NCBI GenBank assembly: GCA_030141605.1
Contig: JAQGDQ010000041.1
Location: 682,001 to 746,000 of the forward strand
Origin: Tubiluchus corallicola
Taxonomy: Eukaryota > Priapulida > Priapulimorpha > Priapulimorphida > Tubiluchidae
Length of the DNA: 64,000 bases
Direction of reading: 5' to 3'
Made by a program: the position numbers and the translations under genes
Shown here: positions 11,388 to 36,600 of the stretch, in pieces
How positions within the stretch are numbered: position 1 is the first letter of the stretch
Layout of the letters: each line of letters begins with the position of its first letter
Notes under the pieces: generated by a model
What the model was told of the DNA's origin: nothing
The model's input: the letters and a program-made list of their open reading frames with translations, nothing else
Databases searched by the model: none

Positions 11388-14300
11388 TCAAGGAGCAGGA
11401 GGCACAGCTTCTTCGTCATCTACTGGTACAGGAACATCTAAATTGTCGATTCTGTACTGCGTCATGGCCTCTTCCTCTGAAAAGGAAACACGGGATGAGT
11501 CATTCTTTGATTTGTTATAAATACAAACTTATGAGAAGAGTTACAGGCTATTTACAGAAAATTTTCTGGTGGTGAAGAAGTGAAAAATACGAAATATTAT
11601 TTAAACACACCATTTTAATTTCAAGATTATTTATCAATTAACCCTAGTGAAAGAATGAACCATTAATTGACCAAAAAGAAGAAAATGCCAAAAATCTAGG
11701 AGTAAAGGCGCCATTCAGACTAATGAGTTCTCTGCTTGTACTTGAATCAGCCAGGGATTCTGGGACTCTTTGAATGACAAGCCGAACATCCTTGACCACT
11801 AAATTTAACAGCCTGCTGACAACAGAGAGAGCGAGAACAAGTGAACAATAAGAGGTTTGTACTCCCCTTTCACATTGCATAGTTTGTTACTTTTAAAGTA
11901 ATTAATAGTTTGGTCTGATAATATCCCTTACAGACCCAAACATTGTTGAAAAGGCATTTCATAACTTAGCCTTTATAGAAAGTTTATATTTTTATTTATT
12001 AAAGCCCTATTTGACAGCTAGAATAATTGTAAAGTACTCGTTTTAATACGTGTAGGATTTTTTTTATCAGCCAATGTCTATTGAATAACTGTGTAAATGT
12101 TATCAGGTTATAATTTCACCATAAAATTACGTTCATTTCACAGTGGAATGTTACATTTACCACATGTTAGCTTTATATTACATAAATGTAATTAGATCTA
12201 GTCACTATAAAATGTAGGGAAAAATTAAGTGCAGTTTACTCACCAGTGTTATAATAAGAATAAACTCGAGCTGGACTATCTTTTAAGTTATCTACAATAA
12301 ATACTCTATTTGCATGCACTCTTGCGCAGGCGTCTCCATCATTAGGAATCTGCAAATTAAGTAAATAGTTAAATAGTAAACAGTAAAAACTTAGTGAAAA
12401 GGCACTGCCATATTACTGACTATCTATGACAAAACTTTATATTTCAGTCATGCTATTTACTAAAATCATCAGTAAAGCCTTGTACTCAGTAACTACAGTA
12501 ACTAGCTGGAAAAATGCTGGTATTAGCTTCATGAAGTGTTCCTATGTTTTCCTTTTTCCTTCCAATTTTCTGACTCGTTTACCCAAGTTTCATTCTGGAA
12601 ATCTGTCAAACATACCTGATTATAATAAATATTGACTGCACTGCCTTCGTCAGCAGACTCGACTCTTTGTAAATCTCTTAACCGCGTCAAATCGTTGAGC
12701 TGATCTTCATCAACTTTAAAGCCAGACGGCAACTGAATTTCTGCCACAGACATACCACTTGGACCATCATTCAGATATCTATGAAAAAGATTCAGTTACG
12801 TGAAAACGGTTGTAAGTAGAACAACTAAACTTTAAAAAACAATAAGGAATAAAACTTTAATGTAATCAGCTCTCTATAAAGAACAAAACAATAACTAACC
12901 TATAGTATCTTGAAAGAGTACAATAAATAAAAAATGTTCACACAATAATTTAACAATAACAGTCCTTACCTGGAACAAATTTCTACAACTATAATATTTT
13001 CATCTGGACTCCACCCTTTTGATGATATATTATACGCTGGTGGTAAATCATCTACAATTTCATTGTATTGCCATGACACCTGCACTAAACTGGTACCAGT
13101 TCCAGAAGCTGTGAAAGAAACTGTTTGCTCGGGACTGCCAACCTAAAGTGAGTGCACAATTGTTAATCCCATGTGTAGCATTCATCTATTAAATCATCAC
13201 TGAATAGAAGTTTTTACACAAAAACTATAGGCAAAAATGTTAGATGATTTCAATTTACTTACCACCCACTCTTGTAGTAAGTCAGCATTTTCTGCATTGA
13301 CAACAAATTTATTATGAATAGGCCCGGCAGTAATATCTATCTCGATGTCTGTGTCTGGTGACTGTGTTTTTTCTCCAAACTCAGACAGAGCTTGTAAACC
13401 AATTATTGTATCCTAGAGAAAATTCAAAAAATCAAATTAGCAGAATTTGTAACTATAAGACTGCATAGACTGCTGTTTTATATTAACACAGGGCACCATA
13501 ATGCATTAATTAAAACAACATACTACTGTTTAACTTACTACAAAATACACCCATAAAAGAGTGTCCATAGAAGGTACAAACTACATTAAAACATCAGGTT
13601 AATTTTGGCTATCTGTATCTTAAAATATACTATCCGCATTGCATATTGAGAAATGTGTGTTAGCTTTCCAGTACACATCTTCTAGTAGACTAAGTAGCCC
13701 ATTCTATTACATAATACATATGCATACCTGTGTTGAAGAAAATCCACCCAAAGAATTCCTCTGGCTAACTAACCATTTCATAACTGGAATAGCGTCCACT
13801 AGATTATCATTGGCTAAGTACGTGAGGAGACCATAAGCAGTCATCTCAATATCCACAGACTTGTGATTGTGGTATAAGTAATAACTAGATGGCTTTTCCT
13901 CTTCTTGTGGGTTCATCCAGTACTTCTTATCATCTGTGTGAAATAAAGTTTAGCGCTAGTATACAAACACGGTAACTTATTTTCGGCCAAGTTGTTTGTG
14001 TTTATTCTTGAGAACTGTTTAAAGCAAAAGCTAATACTTGCCTATCTATGCCCATTTTAATGTCTAGATAGAGAGCATTAATAAAAAGGACTGATGCCCT
14101 CACACAAAGCCACTGTGATTAAAAATTTGTTTTGAGTTTTTGACCTTGTGAACTTGGGCTTCAACCTTTTAAACCAAAAAGCAATTGGTCTTCAGGTCTT
14201 GCTCAGACCTATCCCTGTCAAGTTTGGTTATTATAATTTCACCAGTTTTGATTTCATTATAACAAAGTTGTACAGATAGACACATAGACTCAACTAATAA

Positions 14301-17300
14301 TTAATCGCCTTATTCATGACCAATTAATTTAATAATCCTCTTATCTGCAAATCAGAGTGAAAACCAGAACTAGTCTACATAAAAGAAATTTATCTAGTAA
14401 ACTGCTTATTACGCTATGAGCTCTGGAACATACCGTCAGTTATGGCAAGGTCGCCAAATTTCCTTTGTGTAATAGTAGCCATTTCATGATCCATTAATGT
14501 AAATGCATAATTCACAAGCGCTAAATCATATGGTGTTTCCAATGTGTCCACCTTTGAAGCTAAATAGTCAGCAGCCCTTCTGATTGCGTCTTTAAGACCA
14601 GAAACGTCTATCTTGGCAATACCCTATACAATTGAATTTAAATTGTGATTTGATAGTGAAAAGGAAATCTTTCATACTTGTTGTATATAAGGTACATTCA
14701 ATTACAAGATAAACTAATGTGCAACTTCATTAAAATAACATTTGCAGATGCAGTTAATTATACGATTAAAAAGTTACCTCATCTTGCATGTTTTTATCAA
14801 CTTCTAACAATGATATAAGAGTGTATGCAGAAAGAGCAATTCCTTCGCTAGCTTGCCCCTATAACAAAAATGGTATCAACATTATACAAAAACCGAAAAA
14901 TGACATATGTAAAAGCAGAAGTTACTCCATACTAAGAACCACTGCACTTTCTTTCAGAATTGTATATTCTGTCAACAGAGTTTGAAGTTTTTTGATATGG
15001 AAGCCTGGTGCCAAATAGCTTGCTGGCAGCACATATTCACTCAGAGAGCAAACTATATTTACGTATATTACCTGCATTTCTTTGTGTATCACACGACCTC
15101 CCACTTCCTTAAATGCTCCATCTGCTTGCTGATGTCTAACCAGCCATGATACTGTTCTGGTCATAACTTTAGGATCAATGAAGAGATACTTGTCAGCTTG
15201 AGAGAACGATTTAGCAACAAATGCTGTCAACCTAAGAAAATAAAAATGGTTCTGGAACACCCACTTTCAGTGTAACACTACTCTTATTTGTTAAAAAGCA
15301 TGTGTTAACTACAGTAAGGCTAACTATTAAAAAATGCTATTCGATGAGCACACGTACATAGCACCAATTTTAACATCAGCGGAAATAGGAGAAATCAGCA
15401 ATTCAAACTAATTCTGATGACTGTTCTGTAGAACAGAAATAGGAGATCATGAGAATTTCAAATATTATCTGGTCAAATAATAAACTTCATTGTCAGCATT
15501 ATAACCTGTTATGTAATTTTAACTCATTTCTATTTTCGAATTGTCATTTTGCAGTTCAAAGAAATGCAAGGCATGTTATTGCTAAATCTTTTAGTAACAT
15601 TGGTACTCAACTATCTCTATAATGCAAACAACCTATAATATTATGAACCTTATTATACATCTGGTGTTTATCTGCAAAATGTCCAAACCTGTGGTACATT
15701 TAACATAATGGTAAGCCTTCTTGTAATAATCAGACTTTCCTGGGCTTTCCTCACATAGAGTGAATTTTGCACATTATTCTTAGCTTTAAACAAGATATAA
15801 AGTTTCACGAAACAATGTAAAGAATCATCAAGCCTTTGTTTTTGTTTGCACTTACCATACGCTTCCATAATCATCACTATTACCAAATGCACTAAATGAT
15901 CCATCTTCTCTTTGGTATTTAAGCTCCCGTTGATACCCTTTAAAAACGCAATATTATTTGTAAATGAATGCAACTAATTCTCTTAGCGAGTTATAGCATT
16001 AAGTAAATCGAATAATAAACAAAAACAAAAATTTTGAACAAGCTAAGTGATAACTCAAAACAATGTGTGCTACTCTTAGCCATTATAAGAAATAATGTTA
16101 AAACCTACGTGTGCTAAAAACTGGACAAATCTTAATAGCTTACCTATATCCATAAATTGTTTGGTTTTAGTTTGAATATCAGGAGTGTACTCATCAACAG
16201 CTACGAGGTAATTGGACACGAAAATATTGGGAGCAAACAAGACCATATTCTGTTCACCACATCCTGTCGGCATACGAATCAACCTGTCCAAATTCTTTAT
16301 TGAAGGTCCCATCAAATCTCCTATAACGGATACTTCCAATCGCTCAGAACCTTCAATGATGTCAACAAACCATGGTATTGTAGTCCTAACTTTGACATTA
16401 TCTTCCTGTGTGAGATCTACAAAGTGAGCTTTATTGAAATAGCGAGTGACTCCCTCAGGCTGAAATGAAAAAGCTGATTCTTTATTCTGATCAAGATTAA
16501 CTGATGTGAACTGCGTTGTCTACGTATTAACACTAACTATACCAACAAATCCGAATAAAAATCAAAATAAGAACTAGATTGTACCTTCACTCGAAGATTC
16601 TTTCTAACAGCGTCAGCCGCTGTTTCAGTTTGTCCGCTAATTTTCAGTGATATTTCTCCAATAACTAGAGGTTTGATTCCAAATAAAACAGCAGTTGGTT
16701 CTCCGGCTGGTGCCTACATAAATATTATCACACATTAATAGCCATTTGACACATTTATAGTACACATATCAATTTTAACTTCAATGAGATACTAGACATA
16801 CCAAATAATGTTAAGAACGTTACATAAATACCTTTTATAACGTGTACAGTACCTTGATTGTTTTGCTTCTGCTGTCGAACTTGGCAGAGCTGGGCACACC
16901 AACGTGTTCAAACGTTTCCCCACCACCGCCTAGTGTCAGGAAAACGTTTGTGTCATGATTTAGGTAGTTAAAGACCAGAACTCTGATAAAGACGTCCTCA
17001 CCACGAATAACAGAGTAAGGAAGGTCTAGTTGAACGAAAAATGGTCTTGATACTGTAATCTAAAATATATAAAAATGATATTTTAACCGAATTAAATCGC
17101 AACCAGTTTTTTGTTTGTTCTAAACCGAATCAGAATCAAATACCTCAATTTACATAAGGATAATTTCGTTTTCCTCGTGTACTAATTGCTAATTGGGCAG
17201 CCGGGTAGGCTCTAGAACTTAAAATATCAATTTGGTACCCAAAATTCTTTAAAATATAAGGTACTTCATTAGTCTTTTTTCTCGCAACTGGTTTATTCTT

Positions 17301-18644
17301 GAAATTACTGTCTATGATATATATATATATATATAGTGTTACGAAGGCGAAATGCCCTTTATTATCTTCCCCCTATACACGCCCCCCCCCCCTAGTATAT
17401 GGACGCTATAGCCAGTCTAACATTCGCCGGTTTCGTACACATGGGAGCAGTTGCGTGAAGAGACGCAAAGAGCTTCCTGATCTGCTATCGTCTCAAAGAA
17501 GGGGAACAACGGTGCTACGTTAGTTGGTGCAGTCCTTACGAGCCTGCGGACCTACTCCAGCCATCTGGTTGAGGAACACCCACCTTGCAAGGGAGACGCA
17601 CGTACACGAACCCCAGGAGTCTCCAGACCGCTTTCTGAATCTGGCCGGGACAGAGCCAGCTCTCCGAGCCTCAACTACAGTCATTTCTTAATTCTTTTTG
17701 TTTAAAAAAATTTGACACAAGCCTTTTTCGTAAGCGTTATGCTCTTAAAATGGCAAAAACGTTTTAGGCATAACAGACATTTTATACTCCCGTAAAACTT
17801 GTAAATCCTGCGTGCTTCATTCTGGTTCGAGGCCGAACCATTTTCTGTAGAGGACGGCAGTGTTACGAAAGCGAAATGCCCTTTATTTTCGACCCTCCCC
17901 CTCTACATTGTGATGGTTTCATTCATTACGAAGCCATTGCATATCAGCGTTTCATAACAGCTATAAAGTAGCCGGTATGGAATGGCCTCGTCGGTTCAAT
18001 GATACACACACATGTATTTACATCCATATAGTGGATACACATAAAGCATACATATAGGCAGTAATTTCAAGAATAAACCAGTTGCGAGAAAAAAGACCAT
18101 AAACTCTGTAATGAGAGTAAAGTGCCTTACGTTTTAAAGGATTTTGGGTATATATATATGATGTGTATATGCGAATGTTAAAACTAATTTTTGGGTTATT
18201 CACGAAGTAACTCTATAATGTCATCAACACTATGATGTTGTTGTCATCTTCGGTCTTCTTGTTGTTCGTGCAATGACGTCGCAATAGAGTTACTCTGTAT
18301 TTTAATTTTTTGCAAAAAAACTGATCCTTGCCAACACTACATGGTGTTCTGAATAACGTATCCAGGCAGTTGGACAGTAAAATCATCAATAAGCGAATAA
18401 TCCGATGCCTCGTATTCTTGACTAGTTTTACATGTTTAGCCATTAATTATTTTTAAGATAAAACTATATACAAATAAATGGCGAATTTATTTTGAACTCA
18501 GTTATTGCAATTAGTAATAAACGCACCTTAGCTGTTTCTTCTCCAATTCCCAAGCCATACGTATCGCTTATAGCAAATGCACTAGCAATCCATGACGTAA
18601 TTGTATCCGGAACGTTTGTGCTGATTTCTGTAGAGCCGTCAGAG
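11388..18644 (-). other. TEP: TEP constitutive exons 19-32 (MG7, CUB, thioester domain, receptor-binding domain)
   Basis: Exons, in transcription order: 18527-18644, 16853-17059, 16585-16713, 16144-16459, 15856-15937, 15072-15231, 14778-14858, 14434-14623, 13728-13933, 13263-13412, 12970-13142, 12616-12778, 12244-12349, 11388-11476. Exon 19 opens with one base completing the codon begun by the variable exon and encodes [16 protein letters not shown], the usual sequence after an A2M-family bait. Exon 22 (16144-16459) contains [16 protein letters not shown], with the thioester Cys and Gln both intact. Exon 24 has WLTAFV and the catalytic His in [10 protein letters not shown], 115 residues after the Cys as in C3. 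Exon 27 ends GGFSSTQ and exon 28 begins DTIIGLQAL, as in the family. The last exon encodes an acidic Pro-rich tail and a TGA at 11390-11388. Confidence 0.96.
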
Positions 18645-21600
18645 CTAAGAAGTCATAAAAATAACTATTATTGTTGAAAGTAGCACCACTAGTAATTTGT
18701 TAACAATTGTCGTATTTTGTAAAATCACGAAAAATTAAAAAAGCTTCTTCTTAAATTTTGACGTGTCTATCAAGATTTAATTAAATTCATGTTAAAAGCA
18801 AAAACTTTAGTATGTGCTTTTTTCGAAAACACGATAAACATAAACATGAATTGGCATTTGACGTACGTAACCAGACACAAATTCGTCATGCTAAATTATA
18901 ATTAGAGCATTCAAAAGTTATAATTTGTATGTATCACAATGCAATAATTTTTCCAGTAGTTGAAACAGACAATGTGATGTGTTAGTAAGGAAGCCAAAAC
19001 GATATCTACTATTAGCAATTAAATAGAGATAGTTTAGAAACTGTGCGTTGTTAGTGTGCTAACCAAGCCGAAGCTAGATTAATAGAACACAGATGAACTT
19101 AACAGCTTAACTAAAGCACCGCAAATTTTAATTAGTTTTAGGTTTCGTTAAGTATGTAAGAGAGAGAGAGCCACCCAAGACTATACTAAATAACCGCATA
19201 CACGGGTGCATGAAGAAGGTAGAAACAGCCAATTGTTCATTTTTGTCAGTACTACACTGGTGTATTAATAGTCTTGTTTTAAGAAATAGTTCCTGCAAGT
19301 AAGATTGTATGTAATGACTCTGCCTGAATTCCACCTTTAGCGAACATTATCATAATACGTGTACTGAAAACCGCTTGTTCCATATTGAATAGAACTACAC
19401 ACATCTACGGAGATTACAAAATCACCAAAATTGATGTTAACTCGTCAATAACTACCCAGCATCTGTTTCAGTCCAGAGCCACGTTTCTGGAAAATTGCTT
19501 CGCGTCTGTTTTGGTTTCAGCAACTGCTTTGGTTTACTTTCAGAAACAAAAACATCAATTTGACCAAGTGCATCACTACCAAAAGCACCAAGAGAAATAT
19601 CCGATAGTGGCGCAAAAGCGAATTCCGGTTGAAAGTCAAAGTCAAATTCAAAGTCAAATTCTGGTCCAATTTCTTCAGGAATACCTGGAAACGAAGATAT
19701 CGCGATAATTCAATCTCACTTACCGAGCACCTTCCCATCCCAAGTTTTTAATTCTCTCCTGTGTTTGAAAGTGTTTACTTTCTTATAATATAATTACCCA
19801 GATTTGTTTCAGTCCAAATATACGTTTCTGGAAAATCATGGCGAGTCTGTTTAGGTTTCAGGAAATGTTCTGGTTTATTTTTGGATTTTTTACGTAGGCC
19901 TATGCTGTCAGAGAAAGCAAACGTACAGGCAAAAGGCTGAGGCGCAGCGGCAAAACTTGCAGCTACAACAGTAAATTCCGGTTCGAACTCCTCAACCTCA
20001 AGTATTGAGTATAAAATATCTGGTTCGGTGAACGCTCTTCGGTGAGCGGTGAACAAGTAAAAGAACGCTCTTGGAATCAATTAGTCTTGCACTGCATGGT
20101 CTGCACCGGTCTCATTTTACCCCACTTTCTGATATACCTCTATTCCCGAGAGACTGACGGGTGCATTTTTTTTAGATGATTCGTAAATTTAATGCATGGC
20201 GAGAATTTCACCAAGGCGGCTAAGATTTTGGGAGAGCGGTTTCGAGTTTGCTTTGCTGTCACTTCTGCAGCGCATCCTTAAACTCATTTAGTCCACAAGC
20301 AGCCTGCAAGAAAAACGTGCAATTCACAGTGACCCGGGGTCCGTGTCTCCGTTTACAGTTCCCGTTTACATCTAGGTAATATAATCGAGGATTCTGCCCA
20401 AAATTATAAAGAGTAAATTTACATCTCGGAATGTCCGAAAACAAATACATTTTGTTTGAATCATTCAGTCTCACTTATAGGGCCATTTTAATATGCTAGT
20501 TTTACAACCCATGGATGCGTTTTGATTCTGATAGATATACTGCTTACCCAGCTTTTGTATCAATCCAAAGCCAACTTTTGGGAAAGTTGCTTCGATTTTG
20601 TCTTGGTTTCACTAACTGGTTTGAATCACTTTTAGTGAATCTTTAGACTGCGCTATATGAGCAAAAGCCAGAACGCGAGGCCGTGGCGCTTTCCTAAAGG
20701 TGGCTGGAAGTAAAAAAGACCTGCTGCAGTATTTCAAGGTGAACCTAACCCGCATTTCTTCTTATTTCTCTTTGAATTTTCTGATGAAAATGGAAGCGTG
20801 ACACTGGATATTTCGTGGGAACAAAATTTCCTGAACTAGAAGCAATGATCTAAATTACTTATCCAAAATCCATATTTTGCATAAAATTAATAACAATTAC
20901 CTTTGTACTACCAAACGTGGCCTTTGCTTTGGCTTCCCTAAATGCTTTATCAGTTTATGATTTCAAAAACCAAGCATGGCCACGCGTGAAATCTGGTACC
21001 ATTTGTAGGATTGCAAGACATTTACTATGGATTTAAATGTAAATGCCACATGCATACATTTGAAGCAGGGTTTGCTCATCTCAAAAGTTTGTAAGAGTAA
21101 TTCTAGTCAACTCATATAGCTCGACGAACACGGTCTTTATTCAAATATCATTGATATATCGATCTATTTCAGACTTTTCCGGCACGTTTTTGGGCCAATC
21201 TCATGGATTCAAAATGAAGGTGGTAGGAGGGAACGAAGTGCAAACGAGTCTAAATTAAATAAACAGAGCTCTCCAATCCAGTTCCAATTCTTTAAAGAAA
21301 ACTTCGCAGGCAAAATATTATTAAGCTTTTGTAAAAAAGTTTTGTGAAATGTGTTCTCGCCTGGAGGCCGTCTTTACAAAAAAATCTGACCAGTTGTTGA
21401 CTTCAGCAAATCAGCAGGTAATAGAACATAAATCTCATAATAATACAATTGTATTCATGTTTATCATTCAATACATGCACATGGAACAATATTTGAGAGG
21501 TGGAGCATGTTTTTATCAGAGACTTTAGCGCAAGGCTTAACTTCACTTTTCATTAAAAGAACACTCTCTACTTCAACGAAGATTTCACCAAATCTGTACG

Positions 21601-24600
21601 AAGCATGACGTAAAATCTGTTTTAAACTTGTGTACGCCACGTGAAATCTAAAACTTTACAGAGTAATTGGTGCAGGCTCATGCAGACACGATTCCTTTAT
21701 GGAGGATTCTGAAGAACAATGTATTTACGCTTCTTTGGGTATGTGAAAAAATGTTAAAGAGGAAGAAAAGGTAATTTTATAGTATATCCCAGAAAACTTT
21801 CTATACAAAGTTATGTTACTCAGCATTACTTTCACCTGCTTGAAAGACGTATGGTTACTGGAAGAAAATTCTTAGTTATTCAAAGTAAAACGTCCTGACT
21901 CATCTTCCCAGTTCGCACCACTGACTCGCTAAAACGCATATTATTAGCATCACTGAGAAAATAAAGTAGGCCTAATTTAAACTCTTGCGTGGTTAGTTAA
22001 GTGTTCACTAGGAATACTTTGATTATTTTTTCGAAGTTTACTCAATGTTAACTAAACTTCTTTCAAACGATTTACGTTAAAATGCCCGACGATCGTCCTA
22101 AGAGTTTAAAATTTCAAGTTTTATGTAGTGTTGCTACTAATACAAGCTGTGGGCGTATTACGGCAGTACGTAAGTGATACAAAATTTCAAGACAAATTTT
22201 TAGCTTCATGTAAGTAAACGGTTTTCTTGTTCTTTAGTTTATCTACCCCACACGTTCATGTACCAAAAGTCAAATTTCTGAAAAGCTTTTTGCAGAAATT
22301 TTGGTTTCAGTGAATTGTTTCGAGTTCGAGGTGGAGAGACAGAAAAAACCTCTGTCATGCTGACGCTCGAAACAGAATCAGCAGACTCTTCAAGACAACT
22401 ATTAATATATTATAAATCATAAGAGGGATCCATTGTCAATCACACAGAAACTAATCATATTTATGCGGCAGTAGGTAAAAAAAATCAATAAGCGTTTAGT
22501 GATATTTTAACTGATCATAGGAAACGGGGGCAAAACCATGACGATCGCGATATTACGAATGTAGGAACTACACAAGCTTAAGTAATTTTGCGCGCACTTT
22601 CTTAAACAATGACCGTTGGTCTTTAAACAAGGAAAACGTGTTGCAAAACAGAAAGATCGCGTAGCCGTTAGTAACTTTCGTTAGGTGGCTGTAATTTAAA
22701 TAAATTCCACTGGTTGCCAAATCACAATCGCATGGCTAAATAAAAATTGTGATGCGATCAACGTAGTTATAAATGTACTTAAATACTTGTAGGTATATGA
22801 AACATTCGCTGTTTTGACTAACCAAAATTTGTTTTTTAATCTACGAGTGCGGGTTATACTGGAATCGGATATTTTTTACTAGTTTCACTTGACGTTTTAT
22901 CGAAGTTGTTTCAAAGCTGGCCAATGCAGTGCTTGGTTATTTGGAAGATATTAGGAGAAATTGTTTAAATGAGCAAGAGGAAGTAGATTTTGATGAGTCT
23001 GAGCAGTGTGAAAAAGCAGCAACTAAATTGTAACCGAAACTAAAAAGGATCGTGTAACAGTGTCTGTTTCAAAATCACTGGTCAAATTACGTTTAAATAA
23101 GTGAAATAAATAGTGACGCAAATCTTTGCTACTACGTTTCTTCCACCTACCCCACAAAGGTATTGAGCCAGAGCAGCGTTTCAGGAAAATCTGTTCTAAT
23201 CTTCTTTGGGCGCTGTAAATCTTTGCCAGTTTGTGGCTGGTCAAATGGATTCTGCGCAGTAGTAGGGAAAAATGTTGTTGTAGTAGGAAATGGCCGACGG
23301 GTAGCAGTAAAAGTAGTGCGTCTATCTAGCGAAAAATAATCCCAGTCTCTGGTAGCTGCCTCTGCAAAACGTTATTGTTTTGTAAATGGACGTTTTTATT
23401 GGAATGCCTAACGATCTAGAGATATAAACGTGCTAAAAGTAAGCTGTTCAATGAATAACAAGCTGTGCAAACATAGCAGCTGCTAACAAGAAACTTGAAC
23501 GCGCCAAATCTCGGGCAGTAGACTGTAGTGCCATTTCTTCGCCGCTAGGTTTAAGATCTAGTTTCTTTGTACAACTTCTGTTATATTAGAAGTGACTGTA
23601 CTAATAATGACGTTTTTTGCAATATGTGCAAGGAACAAGCTGCACAATAATGCTCGGCATAATACTAAAATTTAAAGGCACAAATGCATGCAAGTAATTA
23701 ACATAAGTAGGTTAATCAGCATGATATGTAATGACAGTTCACAACAAAACACTCAGCTAAGTTAGTACCTAAATGCATCTGCAAAACACATTACTTAAGT
23801 ATAACTTGAAGTTCAGAAAGCCATTCGGTACATGCAAATCAACACACAACACTCTTCTCACCCAGACTCAGTGTCAATCCACAACCAGGATTCGGGGAAG
23901 TCCTTGCGCACTTTCTTTATGGGGACAACTTTCTTGTTGCTAGCACTCTCGGTTCTTGCGCCTTTAAAAGCACGAGCAACGGCTACACCAGCACCAGGCG
24001 CTGGCCTTTGAGCCATAAGCGGACGTTCAAAAATAGGCTGGATCGCGTGGTCAAAGTAAAAAATAGGAGGGTGTAGTTCTGAAACAGAATATGTTGGCAA
24101 CAACAATTTTTCAAGCTTTAAATTTAATGCTAAAATAGTAGTAACATCTATTCGTTGTCTCCTGGAGCACCAATCGCTTCCTCATAATTCAAAAGTTGGC
24201 TAATGGAAAGATAGAAAAATTAGCATGGTGTCAAAAATCAACTTCGTGTTCAGGCTGCGCATGAAATTTAATGAGCACTTCATCTTTTTGCTTCGGAAAA
24301 TTCTAGGTATTAATAAATTTAATAGAATTTGGTACTCGGAAAGCGGGTACCCAGCACTCAACAAGCAGGGCCTACACGATGTGTATGGTTGTGGGAGCCC
24401 CGGCACAAACTTATGGAGCCTTTGAGCCGAGGTAGGTATGACAGACAAAACCGTCCTGAAGCAATGTTGCCAAGGGCCATTCATCCATTTACTGACTAAG
24501 CTCACGTTTGTTTATCTTTGGTTGCTAAGTACCATCTAGTGAGCTAAAATTAAACTAAACAAAATACATTTTTATTAATCTGATTTAATAAATTAATTAT

Positions 24601-27600
24601 AACAGCTGAATTGTGTGATTACACTATTGTCTCTCATTAATTTAAAAGACATAAATTGAAAACATAATTTCATTCAATAATATAAAAATCGGTTTTGTCA
24701 AGGTAAAAACTTGATATTGTCAACGAATGTGTCGATGTTATGAAGACAAAGTTTGTAATGTCAAGGTAGAAAATTGATATTGTCAATATAAAGGTCCGAA
24801 AATTGGAAAGTGATTTTTTCATATCATCACCTAATACTCTTCGGCACAAAACTGCACTCTATCACTAGTATTGAAAATGCCAATTTAACGAGTTTAGCGC
24901 GTAGTGTCAAATGCATTTTGAAGTTTATATTTGTATGACTTGAGATATTTGTTGACGTTAATGTTAAAATGATAATTAGTGTTAACCATAGTTTTTGCGC
25001 TCTAACTTCACAATATTAAAGTCCACAAATTCTTTTTCCGCAAAATGCCTAAATGTTAGCTACGGGTCCTACAAATGGCAACTAAATGTAGCTGCGCATA
25101 AGTGCACCATGTTTCATTTAGGATTTGGCAATCTCATCTTCAGTATTTTCTTGATGGCACCCCTCCCCTTACCCATAGTAACAAATGTAATGACTTGGGT
25201 GTTACAGTATCGTCCGATTTGAAATTCTCGACACAGTGTAAAACCATAGTTTCTAAAGCACTTCGTATGGTAAATATGATTTTTAGGGTGTTTCTACACT
25301 AAAAACAAAACTGCACTGTTGACTGCTTATAAAGCTTATGTGCGTCCCTTGTTGGAGTACTGCTCGTCAGTGTGGTCCCCGTTAGTGCCGTCAGTTTAAT
25401 TATGTTTCTTATTTAGACAGACCTGTCAGAACTAGAATTGCAGCCAGTCGAATTAAGACGCATTGTCTGTGATCTTAAGATGGTATACAAAATTTGTCAT
25501 AAAATAGTGGGTTTAAGTTTTGATGATTTTTTCAAGAATGCTTCAAAAAACACTCACTAAAAGACTAGCTAATGTTAATTTACTGCCCTATTGCAACTTT
25601 ATCCGGAACATGTAACATTGTCATTGGCGTAATTGGCTCTCTCCGAATCGTATTATTGTATAAAACGTGTTGTATATGGTATATAATTCATATTTAGGTA
25701 CATTTATTAGGAGCTTTTTAATGAGAGATATTAAATTTTAGGGAATTGTTCTATTTTTGTGCATCTTTTTATGTCTTATAGGATCAGCGTAAGTGCGCAT
25801 GCGCCTACTTATTCTTTCTTTTATACAATTTTACTATATGTATAAATGTCAAAATAAATAAATAAATAATGTATCAGAGAGGCCAACAAACATAACACGC
25901 ATACACATAGATTACAGACTAAGTTACTTAAAGAGATTTAGTATTTTCAAAGATTTGGAAGGAATTTCCATGAACTATAGCCCGACTGAGAATTTTTGCC
26001 CGGGAAGACAGATTAGTGTGAAATATAAAACCAGTCAGGAAAAAACCTTTGTCGACAAAACGACGATAATTTTGATCACAAGAACTACCGCTAAACTATA
26101 AACATGATCTTACAAGACACAAAAGAAGACTGACGAGGGGCACGAAAACCCAAGAAGAGAAGGGATTTACTTTGAAGCATAAACCAAGTTAAACCTATGT
26201 GGTGCAAAGATTCGGAGGCGGCGACTAGCACTTCTAATTTACGTCTGTGTATAAAGCGAAATCCAATCATTTAGTCAAGAAAATGCTGCACTCTAAATAG
26301 AACAAACCTTATGTTTTCGATCAGGACTAGCAGGATATATCTCGCACGCTTTAGCTAAATTCGAACTCGAATCACTATAGAGCATGCCTAAAACCATGCG
26401 CATGCAGCATAGCTTTACTATTCTCTACATCTGAGGCTCTATGGAATATATGCAAACAAGATAAATACGTCCTCTCACCCAGCCGTAGTGTCAAGCCACA
26501 GCCAAGATTCTGGAAAGTTCTTACGCACTTTCTTTATAGAGGCAATTTGGGTAGTAGAACTAACAATGTCAGGTTTTTTGTCGACGGGAGGACCAACTGG
26601 ACCTCCAGCAGGACCTGGCCGTCCTAGGTCTTGAAATGCGATGCCCACTCTCCATCTAATGCCAGGTAGCGCATCGGGACTAGGAGGGCCAGGCAATTCT
26701 TTAAAGTAATAGGGAAGCGGAATGTCTGAAACAAAACATTACTGGATCTTTAGTTAATATTGCAGTAGTTGAGGAGTACGGCTTCCAACAATAATGCACA
26801 ATTGTTCGTTTAAAACTGTTTTAATCGATTTTGGTTTAGATATCGTGTTTTCATGCAATAATTGATGGGATTTATATACAGGTCTCATATACAGGTATAC
26901 TCATTGAAATTGAAAAGTGAACTAGTAAATCATCTTCAACATTTATACACGGGAAGTGATTCTATGATGATGATGATGACCCGTTTTAGCAAATTTATTT
27001 TAGCATCACTACCCTACTGTGCAGTTTTTATTTACTACGGGTAAACCTATCACTTATTTCATTCCCATACAAGGTTATACGCCCAGAGATACCTGACCTA
27101 AGTTGGTTTTTATTTTTCGTTTTCCTCCTTTAGTCCTCTTCACTGATGTTGATGGCTGAAAAAAAGATTACACTGATGGCTGAAACTCAGTGTAACTGAG
27201 TGAAAGTTTAAGTTTTTCATTGCGTAAGAAGCATTTATCATTTGGTAAACCCCCAATTTCTGTGCACCATACGCGCATGAGAATCGGATTTTCTCAGCTA
27301 AACTATGACCTTTTCTCTAAAGGCTGTAAAGATAATAAGTGTCATCCAGTATTGTCGATTTGAGTCTGTTGAGCACTTCTTCTTGCACTGCCCATTGTAT
27401 CAGCAAACTAGGGTTGTTATGTTTGATAAACTGAACGAAATACTGCTACCTGAAAACCTTAATATGGCTGTCTTGTTATGAACTGTTGAAGTTGTTATAG
27501 TTTGGAAAAGATGAATTTAATTATGTTGTTAACTGTAAAATATTCTAATGTATACATAACTTTATATTTCGTACTAAGCGCTTTCAGTAGCTTTTTTCTG

Positions 27601-30600
27601 ATATGAAATGCGTCAGTCTTAAATATTCGTAAATTAATATTTCTTAACTGTCATTTGGTACTAATAGCTAATGTAATCTTGTAGTGAAACTTGTTAAGCT
27701 TGTGTTGATAGAGTCAATGCTTACTGTAAATGTTTTTCTTAATAGTGTATATATTTTGTTGTGGTGAGGATCCTGAATCATGTTTTTTTAAACTGTCTGA
27801 TTCAATCCTATAATAAATTATGTTTAAGCTAAATTGTAACGAGTTAAAATTTTTTAGCGAGTTAAAATTTGTATATATATAATCTCAGGAACAGGAAGCT
27901 TCTGTCAACACAGAATGGAATCCAGCATTTTCCCTTGGCTGTTGCAAAGTTTCAACGGAGACAAGATTCTGTAAAATGTTTCGTACTTTCAACAATCGCT
28001 AAGGGAAGTTTTCTTGTTAGCGCGAAGATATTACTGCTGGCCCGGGATTCATCGCAGCAGTGAGGTTAGGCTTATGATACATTGATACATGATAGAAAGC
28101 GTCCAGCGTCTGGCTGCTCGCTTCCAGCGTTCAGCGTTCACTGGGTAATATTAATAATGTGCAGTAATTGAGAGCGTCTTAACAACATCCCTCACTGTTT
28201 GGTATGGCGCTACCACGCAGGGAGATCGCAATGCTCTTAATCTAGTTGTTAAATTATAGGAATTGAACAGCTATGAGTGAACAGCAATCTATGGCATACG
28301 AGGAAGAATGAGAACATACAAGTATTCCAACTTTCATCATCAAATATGCTATTATTATTAATAATATTATTATTATTATTATAAAGTGCCGAGAAAACGT
28401 AAAAAGCGTTGGAAGTTTACAAAGCATAATTATTTAAAACGCTCCGAACGTATTTCTGCAGGTATACATGTTTTTAAAGCATAATTGTTTATTGTAACTC
28501 ATCAGTAAAAAGTTTTTATTTAACTTGGTTTTAATAGACTTTACACTTTAACTTTAACTAATAGGTTTCAATATTTGCATGATGTTACTAGCCACTATGG
28601 TTTTTGTTTGCTGATTTGTTTGCATGCTTATTTTCCATTTGTTTGTTTATGAATTTATGATGAAGTATAATCTCAGGGCGCAAAGTTTGTCGCTTATCAG
28701 TGAATCACTTGAATTATATTATTTGTTAAAAAGTGTGCTAGATAAGAATAAATATCCCAAGAATTTAAAGAATTCGAAATTTGAAGGAAAAAGCGAAAAT
28801 CCATGGCCCTACAATTTGTGGTTTTTAGGTGTCTATTTTGACCCCATAGTTTTGACTGACAAATTAGCGCCTGCTTGTCTCGTTATCCAGTGACAATTAA
28901 TCTGTGTTAGAAAAGCAACCACCACCACCACCGGTCATGTTAGTTTAAATTTCTAAATAGCAATAATTGCGGTGCTTATTCTGGCTAGCAGAAGGCTGAA
29001 CCTGCAAAGTGAGGTGCGAGCTTCTCACCTTGCTGTTGTATCGACCCACAGCCAAGATTCTGGGAAGTTTTTTCGTATTTTCTTTATTGGGGCAAGTTTT
29101 CCTGGTACTGAAGATGTTTCTGTAGCCACTTTTGGAACCTGTGAACTGGGACCTGAACCTGCGAACGAGAAGGCTAACTGCGGCAAGGCACCCCCATCAG
29201 CAGCACCGAAAAATAATTCTCTCCGAAATATAGGCCATATAGGACGTTCAGGGATCTCTGAAATAGGTTTAGAAAATGAATAATTTAATAAAAATTTATT
29301 CTAACCAAACCCGATTAAATAAAACACCGGATCCAATGTACATATTTGGTTTCGGGAGAAATAATGGTTAGTACCACAATTGCAGTAACCTTTGATGCAA
29401 TAATAATTTGCTGAACTGCAATTATCCGAACCGCCACCAAAAACAATTTTAACTTTATAGGAATATATATATATATATACGTGTGAACTGTATAAAAATA
29501 ATGAAAATATCGTTTTTTGCTAGATTATATACGAGCTGGCGCTTTTTAGTGGGGAAGCATTTGCCGAATAAACGCACTTTTCTCACTCAAACGGCAAATG
29601 GCAACAGAAGCTACAATGAGACCGTGTCTCTGTCTCCTTTAAAATGTAGTCTACATCCAAAGTTTTAAAAAAGGCTATACCTACCTCTGTATAGGTAAGT
29701 ATCGGTCACAACAGCCAGTTTCGCCTCCCTGAATGTCTCGTAAGCGTCAGAACTGCTGTACCAGTGCCATGGATACAGGATAAAGCTGCGTTTCTTTCTC
29801 TCAGCACGTATGGGGGGACCTCCAGAACGGAGAAAAGGCACAGGCAGACTATCATCGTCGTCAAAGCCATATCCTCTTACGTCATCCAAAACCTGAATCG
29901 AAAAAGAAAATTATTATTAGACGACGGGTTTTTACCAGTAATTACTATATTAGATCTAATCATTATTAGAACGTGTAGCAAATTACAAAAGATGCATTTC
30001 TGTAGACATACTTGATAACTTTGACATAAGATAACTGTTAATAGAGTTTTCAGCCTTTGTCTCACTTGGCCGACAAAGGATTACAACAGACATCCGTGTT
30101 CCCTCTCCTTTTCTCTGATTTACACAGACATTTTATATCAAAGTTATCAGGGACAGAAGTGCAAAGTTTTCTCTAAGTTTTTTCCAAAGCTGCTTTTACG
30201 TGGAGTTTTCGACAGGGATTGCCTTTTCTTCAATTATATAAACTTTAACCAAATTAAGAAGAATATCAATATACATATATAAAGCTTAACTACTTTGCCA
30301 TGGTAGATTATAGACATAGCATTTTTACTACACGTCGTTGCTGCTTGTCAACTTTATTCCGTATATTACATGTATAACCCTTTACAACTAGCAATTCTGA
30401 AGACTCGTTTCGGCTAATTTTTCTAAAACGTCTTTTGAATTTCGAAAAATGATCACAAACTCACCGAATCTGCTGTGATATCATTTCCACCACGTAGTAA
30501 CAAAACTGACTGATCAACTGCCAGTATGCCAATAAAGGACCAAGGTGCTGTGGTGATGTGCAATTTTACTTTGTCTCCTGGCTCAGCCGATTCTTTGTTA

Positions 30601-33600
30601 AACCGCAATGCAACCTGCGAATAAGAGACAGCCGTTGATTTGCAATCTCGACAGTGGATTGGGCAAAGGCGGAGAATGTAAAATCCACTTAGTGAATATA
30701 TTACATTTTCCAGCAATGGCATGGCTCTTAATAATTCTAATGCCTATTTTTCGAAATAAGTGCCATCATAGATTACTGAAGGTAGGGCGGTAGGGACATA
30801 GCGCCAAATTATATTTTCTGTAATACAATCCATATAAAGAGAAAATATAACAATTACCTGAAGGGGAAGAAAAGGTAATTTTACCGTATGCCCCAAAGAA
30901 CTTTCCATGCAAACTTATATTACTTAGCATGATGCTCACCTCTGTTTGAAAAACCCATGTAATTGGAAAAGAATATTCTTAATTCTAAAACAAAACCACA
31001 TAATTGTTCATACTTACAATATAAAGTAATTTAAACTTTTGCTTAGTTTGGGAAGAATGTGCTACATATGCGCTGATTATTTTTTAAAACTTTGCGCACT
31101 GTTATCTAAACTTGTTCAAACGACTTACAGTTAAAATGGCTGTGCTTAACAGTCCCCGCAGGTATCTAAATTTACAAGTTTTTCAACGTTATTGCTAATG
31201 CATGCTCTGTATGCAATAAGACCGCATGTAAGTGATACAAAATTTTAAGACGAATTTGCTCAGCTTTATTTATGAAGAGCTTTTTCTTTTGCTTTAACTA
31301 TTACACGGACTAACTCATCAACGTGAATATTAATTTATTACCTATAGTCCTATATCTTCATTTCTGATGGTTGACAGATGGCAGCACTTGTGCCTCTGCC
31401 AAGGAAAATGACGATAAGAGAAGTGGTAAAGAATTAAAAATGGTATCAAGTGTGCTAATGCTAAGTGTGATTTTTCTAATTGCTATTAATAACAATATTC
31501 TTTTCAACTAACCTGGTTGTCAAATCCACCCTGAACTTCAAAGTTAGTTGCATCAGTTATCACCTCTCCACTTCTGTGTATGTAATAAACAAGCATTCTT
31601 GAGCGAGGAGCCATGGCATTGTTTATCTCAATATTGAACTCTTGCTCATTATTTCCCATTGGTACGTAGCCATTGTCTTCAATGTTTCCACGTGATATAA
31701 CCTAACAAAAGGGTTTGTACTTGAAAATGGGCAAGAAGTTCCTCAGATTTAGACAGAAAATTTCAGAGACTGGTAATCGTAATAAAAGAAGAAACAAGAC
31801 AGAATAAAAAGAAATTCGTTCGCTCTCCGTTTTGTCTTCATTTATTCATATATTTATTCATTTACTCATTCATTTCATTATTCTGTCATTCATTTGGCTG
31901 GCCAGTAAGTCAGCCAGTCAGTCGGTTATGCTTTTATTCATTTGTTTTTGTTTATTCACTCACTCGGTCATTTGTTGCTGATTTGTCAATCACTCATTTC
32001 TCACTCATGAGGAATTATTCACTCATTCACTAACGTTTTCACCTTTCTCACCCCATAATTCACAGTGCACCTGCTTATTTTCTGGGCGAGCCCACTAATT
32101 AATCCTTGCTTACCAATTAATTACTTCATTTATTTATTCCGTTATTTGTATCATTAGTTGATTGGTTTTAGACCTGCTATTTAGATTCTTTTATGGAAAA
32201 CTTTCGTTTTAGCTATATAGTTTCCACAAAAATTATCAGAAGGTATGAAATGCGCAAAAAAGTTGAAAACCTACCTGATAATATACTCCGTCGATCACAT
32301 CTGTTGATTCTACAAGAAAAGTGGCTTGGTCTCCAGCCTGTTGAAAAGAACATTTCTAGTTACATTTCTTATGTTTTGGACAAGATAAAAAATTCACACC
32401 GCAAAGTCAAGTATTTTTATCCATCTTGATAACACAAATGAAATCTCTACTTACCACTAGATCTGCACTCCTTAATCCAACTTGAACAAAAGCTTTCACA
32501 CCAGCTTTATATTCCGACGCACTCTTCCCGGCAGTACTGTCGCCAGTTGATTGAGTATATTTGGCCTAAAAATTACAAAGCAGTGTTTAGTTTTTTCTAA
32601 ATTTAAAATTTTATTAAAATAGACGTAGCAAAAAGTGTAAAAGTATACAATTCTTTGTATAATTAACATGTTCTTCAGATGAAGGAAAAGCAAATTGCAA
32701 CGTAACAATTAATTTTTTTGCGACTGTCACTTTCTCATTTACAGTACTATGCAGAACATGGCTAAAAATTGTGCAGAGAATTAAACCCAGATTCTTTAAA
32801 ATTTCTTACGGCAAAGTTAAGACTTCCATAAATCAACGAAGGAACTTCTACTTGAACCACAACGCGTCCATCAGCTGGTATTGTGTAAGTTTCAATCTTA
32901 CGTTTTGGAAATCTGTGTCTGCTATCCCAACTATAACAAATGAAAAAACAACATCGTTACTGAAGTGGTAAATATTATTTATTATTGCTACCTTTTAAAT
33001 TTTTTAAATAAGTTAACTGTCGTGCGAAAATTTTATATAAGTGCAATCAGTAAAATTCATCATTTGAATAAAGGGTTTTTCACAAAAGCTTGAACAACTG
33101 ATTAAGTGCGCCAACTTTTTTATTTATTTCAACAACTGAAATTGCAAGCTCAAACCCTGTTTCCTGAAGACTGCAAAGTAACAACAACAGCGATACAGCT
33201 ATAGTGTATACAATTTCTATTACAAGCAAAATAAGCTTTTTTAAGGGACGAAAAAAGTTGCAACAAAGAAAGTAAGTTTAATATAAACAGTAAGCCACAG
33301 GCCCATAGCAGTAACTTTTAGACATAATTGGTGTTTATCTTTAATTCTAATTCTACCTTGGCCAATCTGGATTAGCATCTGGATTTTTTTCATCCCATCT
33401 ATAAGTGAGTTCTACTTCTTGAGCATCTGAATCCAACAGCGGCGACCCATCTTGACGTTCAAACGTTATCTAGAAAACAAATTCCTTTATTCTCTAGGAA
33501 ATTAAGAATAATTATAGTTTTCGCAAGCTGTCTTGATAATAAGCATAAAGCGTATCGTAGTAATAAGTACTGAAGTAGAGAAATTGGTTTCGAAAGTTAT

Positions 33601-36600
33601 GCATACCACAGCGAAATAAGGTAGCCCGGGCTTGTAGTAATCAGGTCCTTGAAACGTCATTTTCACTGGATGCTGGTACTTGCTCACGTAAGCTTCACCT
33701 GTCAGCTCAACACCAGTTGCCTCCTCGGTCACAATGGCTTCTATTTTTACTCTTCTACCATCTCCAATAATTGACAGGACATTAAAAGTAAAAGTTGCTT
33801 CTCCGTCAATCTGAAAATTCGTAACTGGTTACAACAAGCGTTAGTGCGAATACAAAAATCTATGTTTCAAATAAAATGAGGTATACTATGCTCAACATTT
33901 GGTCACTTTGGTTTTCTTTATTGTTGACAGGTGTACGTATTAACATTTTTACCTGGATAGTTTTTGCGACTATTTTTCTCTCACCATCTAAAAGAGAAAC
34001 CACGGCTTTACCTTTTACTGGACCACCGTGGGTATATCTGAAAAAAGTTAAAAACTGAGTGCTGTTTACACTGAAATCCTATCAATTCATTTTCACTGTT
34101 AAAATTTCCATGTTTGATCGCAAGGAATTACTTTTCACTAAATAATTTTCATGTTTAAAGAATGCAGATGCAGATCTTACTTCATCATTATTAAATTACA
34201 AGCATTTGAAGCAAATAGAATTTTGTTGTTATCGCATAAGGTAAACTAGCCGCTTACCTTGCTCTGACAACACCAGAAAGTTCAAAACTGTCTCCGACTA
34301 AGAACGAGGGAAGATCAACTTTAACTTCAAATCGTGGTAGAACTGAAAAAAGAATAAATTATACTTATTGATTTTTCACCCAATTCATTTTGTAGCTGAT
34401 TAAACTAACAACGTTTCAGCCAAATTGATCGGTTTACTTACGGTAAGATCTAAAACACCAAAGTCATTATTTTGATGGATTCTACTCATTATTCAAAGTT
34501 ATTGTTAATTTTTGGGATTCGGTTATTTGACTTCGGTGATTAAACATCACCGCAAAACGAGCAAAACACAAAAGTTATTTATGCTGGGAGTTCGTAAAAT
34601 TTTGGAAGGCAAAAAACTTACCATATTCTTCGACTTCAAAGTTCTTTGAGGCTTCCTCTCCCTGCATTTGTGAAACAAAAAAAGAGTTTATTTTATACTA
34701 CTCATGTTAGTAAATAGACAATTTTGTTGTCAGCAGGTTAGACTTTATATATGACTTCCATTCTAAGTGTCTGACTGATGAAAGAGCTATTTTAAGAAAA
34801 ACCAGTAAACTACTTACATCAGAGTTAACAGTGATTTTCCACGTGCCGAAAACAGGCTGATCACTTAACATGAAATCCAATGTGGCAACACCTGAACAAA
34901 ACAGGAAAATTTAAAGAACGATAATTTCATGTTTTTTTTTACTGTTACGGTACGGTTTATCATTAAAGTTTGACTCATTCATTACTGCTAGGATGGGCGT
35001 ACGGGCCTATTTTTCGAAGGAGGGCTGAGCCGTTTTCGCTCGAAAAATACAGCACCAACCCGAAAAAAACGCATGCCAACTTCGAGTCGGGAATTGGTCA
35101 ATTGAACCCCATGATCAAAAAATACCCGAATTTCGGGCACTTCATTTGGCGTCATGGAGATATTTCGAGATTTCCTTTTATGAAAAATGTTTTTCATCAT
35201 TTGGCCGGCGCCCGAAAAATTTGGTGATTGCCCGAATCCGGGAGGGGAATGCAGCCCCCAGCCCATACGCATATGACTGCTAGCCTGAGCGAAATGGCAA
35301 ATTTTTTGATTTACTGATACCTGATCGAGCTTTTGCCAAATGTATAACCAAATTGGTTTATGAAGTTTTTTGACTTGTAACTTGAATGAGAGAGAGAAAT
35401 CGCTGAATAGCTCGCCTGCAAAGTTAAGCAACACCAAGCCGGGATAATAAAAGATGTATAAAAACTGACAAAACGGGCATATGCCTCACGTACTACAGAT
35501 GTCTTGGTGAGGGGGTAGGTGTACACATACGAACATGGCTAAGCTGCCTCTGCCATAATGCAGTAAAAATAATTTGTTCTATTGAGCGAGCATGCTTACC
35601 ATTCACTGTAGCTAAACCGTTCCACTCCACCATTTTATTTCCATTTGAATCTTTAATGTCAACATCTAATGTCCCTCTGTATGGCCTTAGGTAAGGGTTA
35701 ACTGTAATAGCTCTAAACTGAACTGCAAATTTAATCAAAAAGTTTATAGAATAACTGTAGTTGTATTAAGAATGCAATAAACACCATAGAAAACGATCAA
35801 TGGCTAATTACTATTTACCACTAAGTTACAAACAATTTAAAAAATATATCCACGTATGTGGATAACTTCTCCTAACAAAGTTCCTTAGAAAAATTTGTAA
35901 AGCCCTATAGCCGCATATGAGCCTAAATTATGTATTTCTAGCTATTGTAAATAATAGTCTAGCGACGTGCACGGGGGAGTGCTACGGAGCTTGAAATAAA
36001 AAAGGATTTTGACAGAAGAAAATGAGCAATTGGTTTACACTATACATTTAGAATGCTAAATCACTATGCAAAAAGTTTGAACAATAGGAACCCTCTGGTT
36101 TCCTTTTGTAGGTACCCCCAAAATTGTGGATGTAGGCAAAAATAGTGCAGGAAAAGATATTACAGCGACTAGGACACAGAACCACATTACAGCGTCATTA
36201 TTATCTATTCACATCTTGCCATTTTACCGGATCCAACAAACTATGTATTGAATTACTCCGTCTACAATACAGGTACACAATCGGTACGTTTCTGAAAGCT
36301 CTTATGCTAACCTAAACGTACTGTTCTTCTCAATGATATTATATCTTGTTTATTGTATCTTTTTCACACGGGATATAAGCCTTTATTATGATCTCGAGAT
36401 CTACTGTTTAGTTCAAAGGTTTTGTTTAACCTTTTATTGGTATATAAAACAGTTTTGAGGGTAGGGTGGGGTATACGATCTCTTTGAGGCATTAAGCCAG
36501 TGTATCTAATTCTGCTTATGGGAACTCACTGTCCTAGGAAAATTAATGATCTTTTGCTCATTGGAATAGCAGCTGCTGCAAGAGCCGACAGCTGAGCACT

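Follow-up and report, generated by a model that had tools for sequence, protein, structure and literature searches.

A CD109/TEP-type thioester gene of the priapulid Tubiluchus corallicola with a probable array of mutually exclusive bait-region exons

The stretch of DNA analyzed here, referred to as the window, comprises 64,000 nucleotides (nt) of the genome of the priapulid Tubiluchus corallicola (GenBank assembly GCA_030141605.1, contig JAQGDQ010000041.1, forward-strand positions 682,001 to 746,000). It derives from an assembly of 343.5 Mb in 2344 contigs and contains 0 N, that is, no assembly gap. A single gene for a thioester-containing protein (TEP) lies on the minus strand of the window; its exon at the bait position is present in several tandem copies, the subject of this report. 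We rebuilt its coding sequence from 38308 (exon 2) to 11388 (stop codon). All 31 acceptors of the model are AG and all 30 donors are GT, and when the model uses the first copy, c1, the result is an uninterrupted open reading frame of 1483 amino acids (aa) from exon 2. For the first exon, a mechanical scan of positions 42500-38320 for an ATG, a hydrophobic stretch and a phase-matched donor printed a sole candidate. The parts of the gene outside the copies are listed below; the boundaries facing the copies, 29685 for the end of exon 17 and 18644 for the start of exon 19, agree in position with a first-pass annotation of this DNA.

11388..38308, minus strand: thioester gene of the CD109/TEP type, from exon 2 to its stop codon, 31 modelled exons with one bait exon counted
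40289..40365, minus strand: candidate first exon, coding for a signal peptide (25 protein letters)
29685..29892, minus strand: constitutive exon 17, ending in phase 1; five other genomic loci match at 60-99% identity
18527..18644, minus strand: constitutive exon 19, starting in phase 2; five other loci match at 66-97% and three more at 43-47%
29788..29799, minus strand: basic site RKKR within exon 17, on the upstream side of the bait, read in the sequence, with a putative furin-like function
16250..16264, minus strand: thioester motif GCGEQ at residue 978, read in the sequence; TED_complement domain

In the first 1044 of the 1483 aa, which were scanned against Pfam, the MG2, MG3, MG4, A2M_BRD, A2M and TED_complement domains score above their curated cut-offs, and with its macroglobulin (MG), A2M_BRD, A2M and TED domains and its GCGEQ motif the gene is a member of the thioester-containing/alpha-macroglobulin superfamily. 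The closest solved structure in the PDB is human CD109 (E 8e-132; 444 bits), followed by A2M (305 bits), mosquito TEP1 (297), cobra venom factor (153) and complement C4/C3/C5 (at most 147), a ranking that, rather than a tree, places the gene in the CD109/insect-TEP branch. The RKKR site is reminiscent of the beta-alpha processing site of C3/C4. Human CD109 is anchored by glycosylphosphatidylinositol (GPI), and it is not known to have alternative bait exons. A GPI-type hydrophobic tail was not found in our model, in which the last exon was assigned from genomic sequence: at most 6 of 15 residues are hydrophobic within the last 45. Nor, with the same limit, was an insect-type C-terminal cysteine stretch, the feature by which PMC7016707 defines iTEPs, found in the final 60 modelled residues, where a single cysteine lies close to the beginning.

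Between exons 17 and 19 lie the following copies of the bait exon, among whose matches we name other loci of the genome by C numbers.

29029..29257, minus strand: bait exon c1, 229 nt, intact; AG/GT, open; homologs in C1395, C1689 and C2311
26479..26725, minus strand: bait exon c2, 247 nt, intact; AG/GT, open; homolog in C2311, with its anchor shortened
23862..24078, minus strand: bait exon c3, 217 nt, intact; AG/GT, open
23151..23361, minus strand: bait exon c4, 211 nt, intact; AG/GT, open
20548..20642, minus strand: decayed bait copy, whose anchor (22 protein letters) is preceded by out-of-frame sequence; protein E 4.2e-8, DNA E 1.2e-7
19798..20019, minus strand: bait exon c6, 222 nt, with a frame lesion; in frame only when joined to c5
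19456..19684, minus strand: bait exon c5, 229 nt, intact; AG/GT, open

The five intact copies, c1 to c5, are those that the first-pass annotation had proposed, with the same acceptors; all have their AG and GT in corresponding positions and lengths of 1 mod 3. In each of them (5/5) the in-phase donor is also the top-scoring donor, the in-phase choice not having been imposed on the scoring. Splice sites were scored with a simple matrix, whose automatic acceptor pick chose inner AGs for c1, c3, c4, the C1395 copy and others; for these we used the positions of the first-pass annotation or homologous ones, and for copies at C586 and C2127 we kept the edges as called, which are unsettled.

What the copies share is an anchor at their C-terminal end. 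Their alignment has eight invariant columns, all within the final 19 residues of c1, and the remainder is barely conserved. A profile of this anchor finds, at E≤0.05, seven coding-strand stretches in the window segment, with E-values of 2e-14 to 4e-12 for c1-c5. No match was found at E 0.05 on the opposite strands of 12 pieces of the genome or in five dinucleotide-block-shuffled sets, and these controls weigh more than the E-values since the copies and their relatives served to train the profile. The shared anchor is thus far above chance. Aligned with CD109, the protein has an unaligned gap, at query residues 604-722, between two matched parts; c1 starts at residue 665, and its anchor falls in the second matched part, where it aligns with RKHFPETWIW of CD109. 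By this alignment, c1 lies at the bait position. The baits of c1-c5 themselves vary in composition, with net charges from -10 to +3: that of c5 is strongly acidic (net -10), that of c2 is rich in Pro (21%) and Gly (13%), and that of c4 is rich in Thr/Ser (27%) and has two Arg-Arg pairs.

The remaining copies fare less well. What had been described as one doubtful copy, c6, is indeed homologous to the others, but its length is 0 mod 3, with one base fewer before the donor than in c5, and it is out of frame when used alone, its top-scoring donor being out of phase. Two decayed copies had also been proposed. The one near 20.6 kb is well supported, whereas the one near 20.26 kb (DNA E 7.8, no protein match at E 0.05) is not above chance, leaving seven of the eight copies that had been called recognizable.

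The reading frame itself constrains how these exons could be used. Frame tests covered single copies, no copy and ordered pairs. Any of c1-c5 used singly gives a full open reading frame of 1477-1489 aa from exon 2. Skipping all copies leads to a stop 25 aa past exon 17, use of c6 alone leads to an early stop, and of the 15 ordered pairs that six copies allow, 14, including all ten pairs of intact copies, run into a stop 73-95 aa past exon 17; taken together, the stops of these failing combinations fall 25-99 residues past that exon. The exception is c6+c5, which stays in frame as far as the natural stop. Since the copies are entered in phase 1 and left in phase 2 and the intact ones have lengths of 1 mod 3, the frame favors exactly one intact exon. 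In anatomy the array matches the published kind: homologous exons follow one another in tandem at the bait position, share their phases and carry a conserved anchor at the C-terminal end.

The same design recurs at other TEP loci of this genome. An A2M_BRD search of the assembly gave 29 matches, some of them in bacterial or intronless genes. Exon 17 matches six loci, including the window, and exon 19 matches these and another three that are more distant. The anchor scan covered eleven further pieces, all around A2M_BRD matches; those of C1567 and C77 contain 5000 N each, and the anchor counts are lower bounds for C2014, C77, C215 and the C586 piece 26900-36899, where coverage of the bait interval is uncertain. 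At E≤0.05, anchor matches number 11 at C2265, two at C2127, two at C2311 (one shortened), one each at C1395 and C1689, one at each of two places at C586, and one, weak (E 0.023), at C2014; none was found at this threshold in the pieces of C215, C1567 and C77. Two of these loci carry more than one copy in an arrangement like that of the window.

C2265, 790359 to 764069: diverged paralog (L011-L013) with ten open bait exons, 28 kb between its exons 17 and 19
C2127, 273852-274177: distant TEP gene (L018) with two tandem, close-set bait-anchor exons, upstream edges unsettled

At C2265, one decayed bait fragment, near 772.9 kb, lies beside the ten open exons, in each of which (10/10) the top-scoring donor is in phase. 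We dropped their lengths of 1 mod 3 as independent evidence, the edges having been picked among in-phase sites; acceptors k4, k6, k7, k9 and k10, numbered in gene order, are not the top-scoring AG and were set by eye, k10 being the least certain. With its ten exons, C2265 means that the array in the window is not the largest in its own genome.

The gene model, the phase logic and the position of c1 in the bait gap of the CD109 alignment give strong support to a single gene whose bait-region exons are alternatives, in agreement with what the first-pass annotation had proposed. We consider it very probable that these act as mutually exclusive cassette exons of one secreted TEP gene. Exon 17 would be spliced to one copy and the chosen copy to exon 19, so that a single intact copy would be productive and none or two would end in a premature stop. 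Each copy would encode a variable protease-sensing loop of about 50-60 residues, a role that we assume from what is known of A2M-type proteins, followed by a conserved strand, R-x-x-F-P-E-[ST]-x-L-W, leading into the next macroglobulin domain. All five copies may be expressed under regulated choice, and different baits would then answer different proteases, each springing the thioester trap. Several observations weigh against this. The use of any copy is a prediction from genomic sequence. Three close paralogs make do with less, C1395 and C1689 keeping c1 only and C2311 keeping c1 and a c2 whose anchor is shortened; a gene of this type can therefore do without a large array. The pair c6+c5, being in frame, would break strict exclusivity. 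Finally, in exon clusters of the docking/selector (Dscam) type, an intronic docking site pairs with a selector before each exon, and we found no convincing RNA pairing of this kind between the intron after exon 17, the only one tried as docking site, and the stretches before c2-c6, that before c5 being only ~94 nt long: the best summed duplex energy was -111.8; 12 shuffles gave -95.8 to -111.0, and among seven control segments one went further, to -112.4.

Other explanations have to be weighed against these data. It is unlikely, in our estimate, that use is restricted to one or two copies, such as c1, and that the others are undecayed remnants of old exon duplications. The decayed copy at 20.6 kb and the frame-broken c6 would be expected of such remnants, C1395 and C1689 do carry single copies, and some splice scores are weak under the simple matrix (c5 donor -1.1, c4 acceptor -0.2). 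The copies are old, however, the anchors of c1-c5 sharing 48-81% DNA identity among themselves, compared with a difference of 5-10% in the introns around c1 between gene duplicates, and unused copies of such age should have lost frame or splice sites, as did c6 and the 20.6-kb copy; five copies here and ten at C2265 have kept both. That the copies are split among several genes, as a tandem TEP set whose remaining exons were lost or left unassembled, is highly improbable: the genome does contain several close TEP paralogs, but in a genome search at E≤0.001 exons 17 and 19 each match once at the locus, with no second match between the copies, and the window has no assembly gap.

We also regard it as quite improbable that, alongside single use of c1-c5, splicing joins c6 to c5 as a double exon, whose bait would be longer and carry two anchor strands. 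Only 113 nt separate the two exons, and theirs is the sole pair that holds the frame to the natural stop, yet such a fit would be expected by chance about one time in three. Moreover, the c6 acceptor has no pyrimidine tract by eye, although its score (-0.5) shows no clear gap from that of c4, and its anchor reads FPETYIW, compared with mostly FPE[ST]WLW in the other copies. Mutually exclusive use of the intact copies accommodates these observations best.

Among the duplicates of this gene, the bait core diverges rapidly. When c1 is compared with its three homologs, the flanking introns are 90-95% identical over ~400 nt to each side and the 70-nt anchor is 96-100% identical, whereas the remainder of the exon is only 58-71% identical, with many insertions and deletions. 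In spite of this, the four lengths stay 1 mod 3 (229, 220, 136 and 220 nt). The difference between bait and introns has Fisher P values of 1.5e-14 for the window against C1395, 4e-10 for the window against C2311 and 1.5e-10 for C1395 against C2311, pairs that are not independent of one another; the three pairs with C1689 lie outside the test. Between the window and C1395, the proportions of nonsynonymous (pN) and synonymous (pS) differences are 0.33 and 0.38 in the bait, where alignment across insertions and deletions is uncertain and can inflate both values, and 0.027 and 0.055 in seven constitutive exons. These comparisons were limited to exons with a match in the fetched pieces, and gaps or short matches led us to drop one exon each for C1567, C1689 and C2311 and two for C2265. 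In the constitutive exons, pN/pS is near 1 (0.99) for C2311 and 0.80 for C1689, where constraint could be relaxed.

That positive selection is the sole cause of the divergence of the bait does not follow, silent sites being raised as well. Slippage, exchange or alignment error could contribute, and the bait core of C1395 holds a repeated QMAMP unit. A tentative explanation, possible but not one that we would rely on, is that the core is a hypervariable patch between acceptor and anchor with a rapid turnover of its own, through repeat slippage, short-tract exchange or raised mutation, which together with gene and exon duplication would yield new loops across the TEP family. The window gene and C2265 between them hold 15 open alternative baits in one genome. 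According to PMC9363628, differences between strains of Biomphalaria concentrate in bait or hypervariable regions, in line with the fast-changing core of c1 here.

As for the history of the array, the window gene shares with C1395, C1567, C1689 and C2311 14 aligned blocks of more than 1 kb, introns included, that are 87.9-94.4% identical. The anchors of c1-c5 are less alike than these blocks, so the exon copies are older than the close gene duplicates. A small anchor tree (62 bases, modest supports) does not gather c1-c3 and c4-c6 into one window-only group apart from the C2265 copies, which hints that an array may predate the split of these two genes. The block that holds c3-c5 has a history of its own:

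19026..25553, minus strand: block with c3-c5, missing from C1395, C1689 and C2311, where the junction is the same (blastn against paralog pieces; junction sequences)

Since divergence among the exon copies exceeds that among the gene duplicates, we favor loss of this block in the three paralogs over the possibility that the window gene acquired it by insertion from an unsampled relative. Two probes, covering 1.2 kb (c3-c4) and 1.4 kb (c5-c6) of its 6.5 kb, were searched against the assembly: DNA 23000-24200 matches elsewhere only over 102 bases, at c2, and DNA 19400-20800 matches only at its own locus.

The close duplicates cannot all be alleles of the window gene, five loci being too many for a diploid. 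Beyond the 3' end, similarity extends for only about 1 kb in C1567, C1689 and C2311 (40 of 179 candidates scored), C1395 being unmatched in that query. On the 5' flank similarity to the close duplicates is patchy (40 of 391 candidates scored), and C1689, which is partly collinear with the window on that side, might be the other haplotype.

Several further features came to light along with these genes. Searches for COX1, for molluscan haemocyanin (PF14830) and for the annelid linker (PF16915) gave no match; the latter two drew a blank in the controls as well and so carry no information. An open WD40-like stretch at positions 2-163 of the window, minus strand, is probably an exon of a neighboring gene, its Pfam matches being below curated cut-offs. 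Two animal-type A2M/CD109 genes, L001 (C1874) and L002 (C1915), are single long open frames of 1520 and 1453 aa and may be retrocopies with a retained open frame; L002 has SGEQ at the place of the expected thioester GCGEQ. L003 (C782) and L004 (C1830) are bacterial A2M genes present in the assembly, from associated bacteria or contamination, and L004 has counterparts of the same match score and frame length at C1658, C1700 and C1721. Among the best 80 of 142 matches, the relatives of L004 are mostly Bacteroidota and Fibrobacterota at 31-38% identity, the nearest (36-38%) including the marine Crocinitomix.

Arrays of bait exons are a possible route by which an invertebrate could diversify a complement-like trap in the absence of adaptive immunity, and if its copies are usable, one gene could yield several differently triggered proteins. 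In this genome, copy number in related genes runs from one through two and five to ten, a natural series in which array gain and loss could be studied, and there are also young duplicates whose bait core has diverged much further than the surrounding introns. The kind of array is nevertheless already known from snail, scallop and fly, and that of the window is one more case; the ten-exon paralog at C2265 and the hypervariable core are the more interesting parts.

Alternative exons at the same place have been described in Drosophila Tep2 and in a scallop TEP (PMC7016707, PMC5489563), as the first-pass annotation had noted. In Drosophila melanogaster, Tep2 has five alternative forms of a hypervariable bait-like exon (PMC5489563, PMC7016707); fly and mosquito TEPs have 11-15 exons (PMC7016707), and Tep2 is intron-poor compared with the 31 modelled exons of the window gene. 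The scallop Chlamys farreri has six mutually exclusive exons and seven isoforms of CfTEP, with pathogen-dependent choice (PMC7016707), the same exon arrangement as here, compared by description only and with the difference that expression is known there. Variants at the bait position also occur in different members of the superfamily, with three in BgA2M, four recovered of eight predicted in BgCD109, and six in A2M-2 of the shrimp Fenneropenaeus chinensis (PMC7016707). A transcript-proven precedent is BgTEP2 of the snail Biomphalaria glabrata, a TEP gene with 12 mutually exclusive exons over ~30 kb whose alternative exons have their conserved residues in the C-terminal part (PMC7016707), just as the tandem bait-like exons of the window do. 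That array is larger than the one in the window, contrary to the suggestion that ours is of similar or larger size than those known. Its 12 variants are proven by transcriptomes, whereas the five intact copies of the window are read from the genome; in number and span, it is the C2265 paralog, with ten open copies over 28 kb, that comes nearer to BgTEP2.

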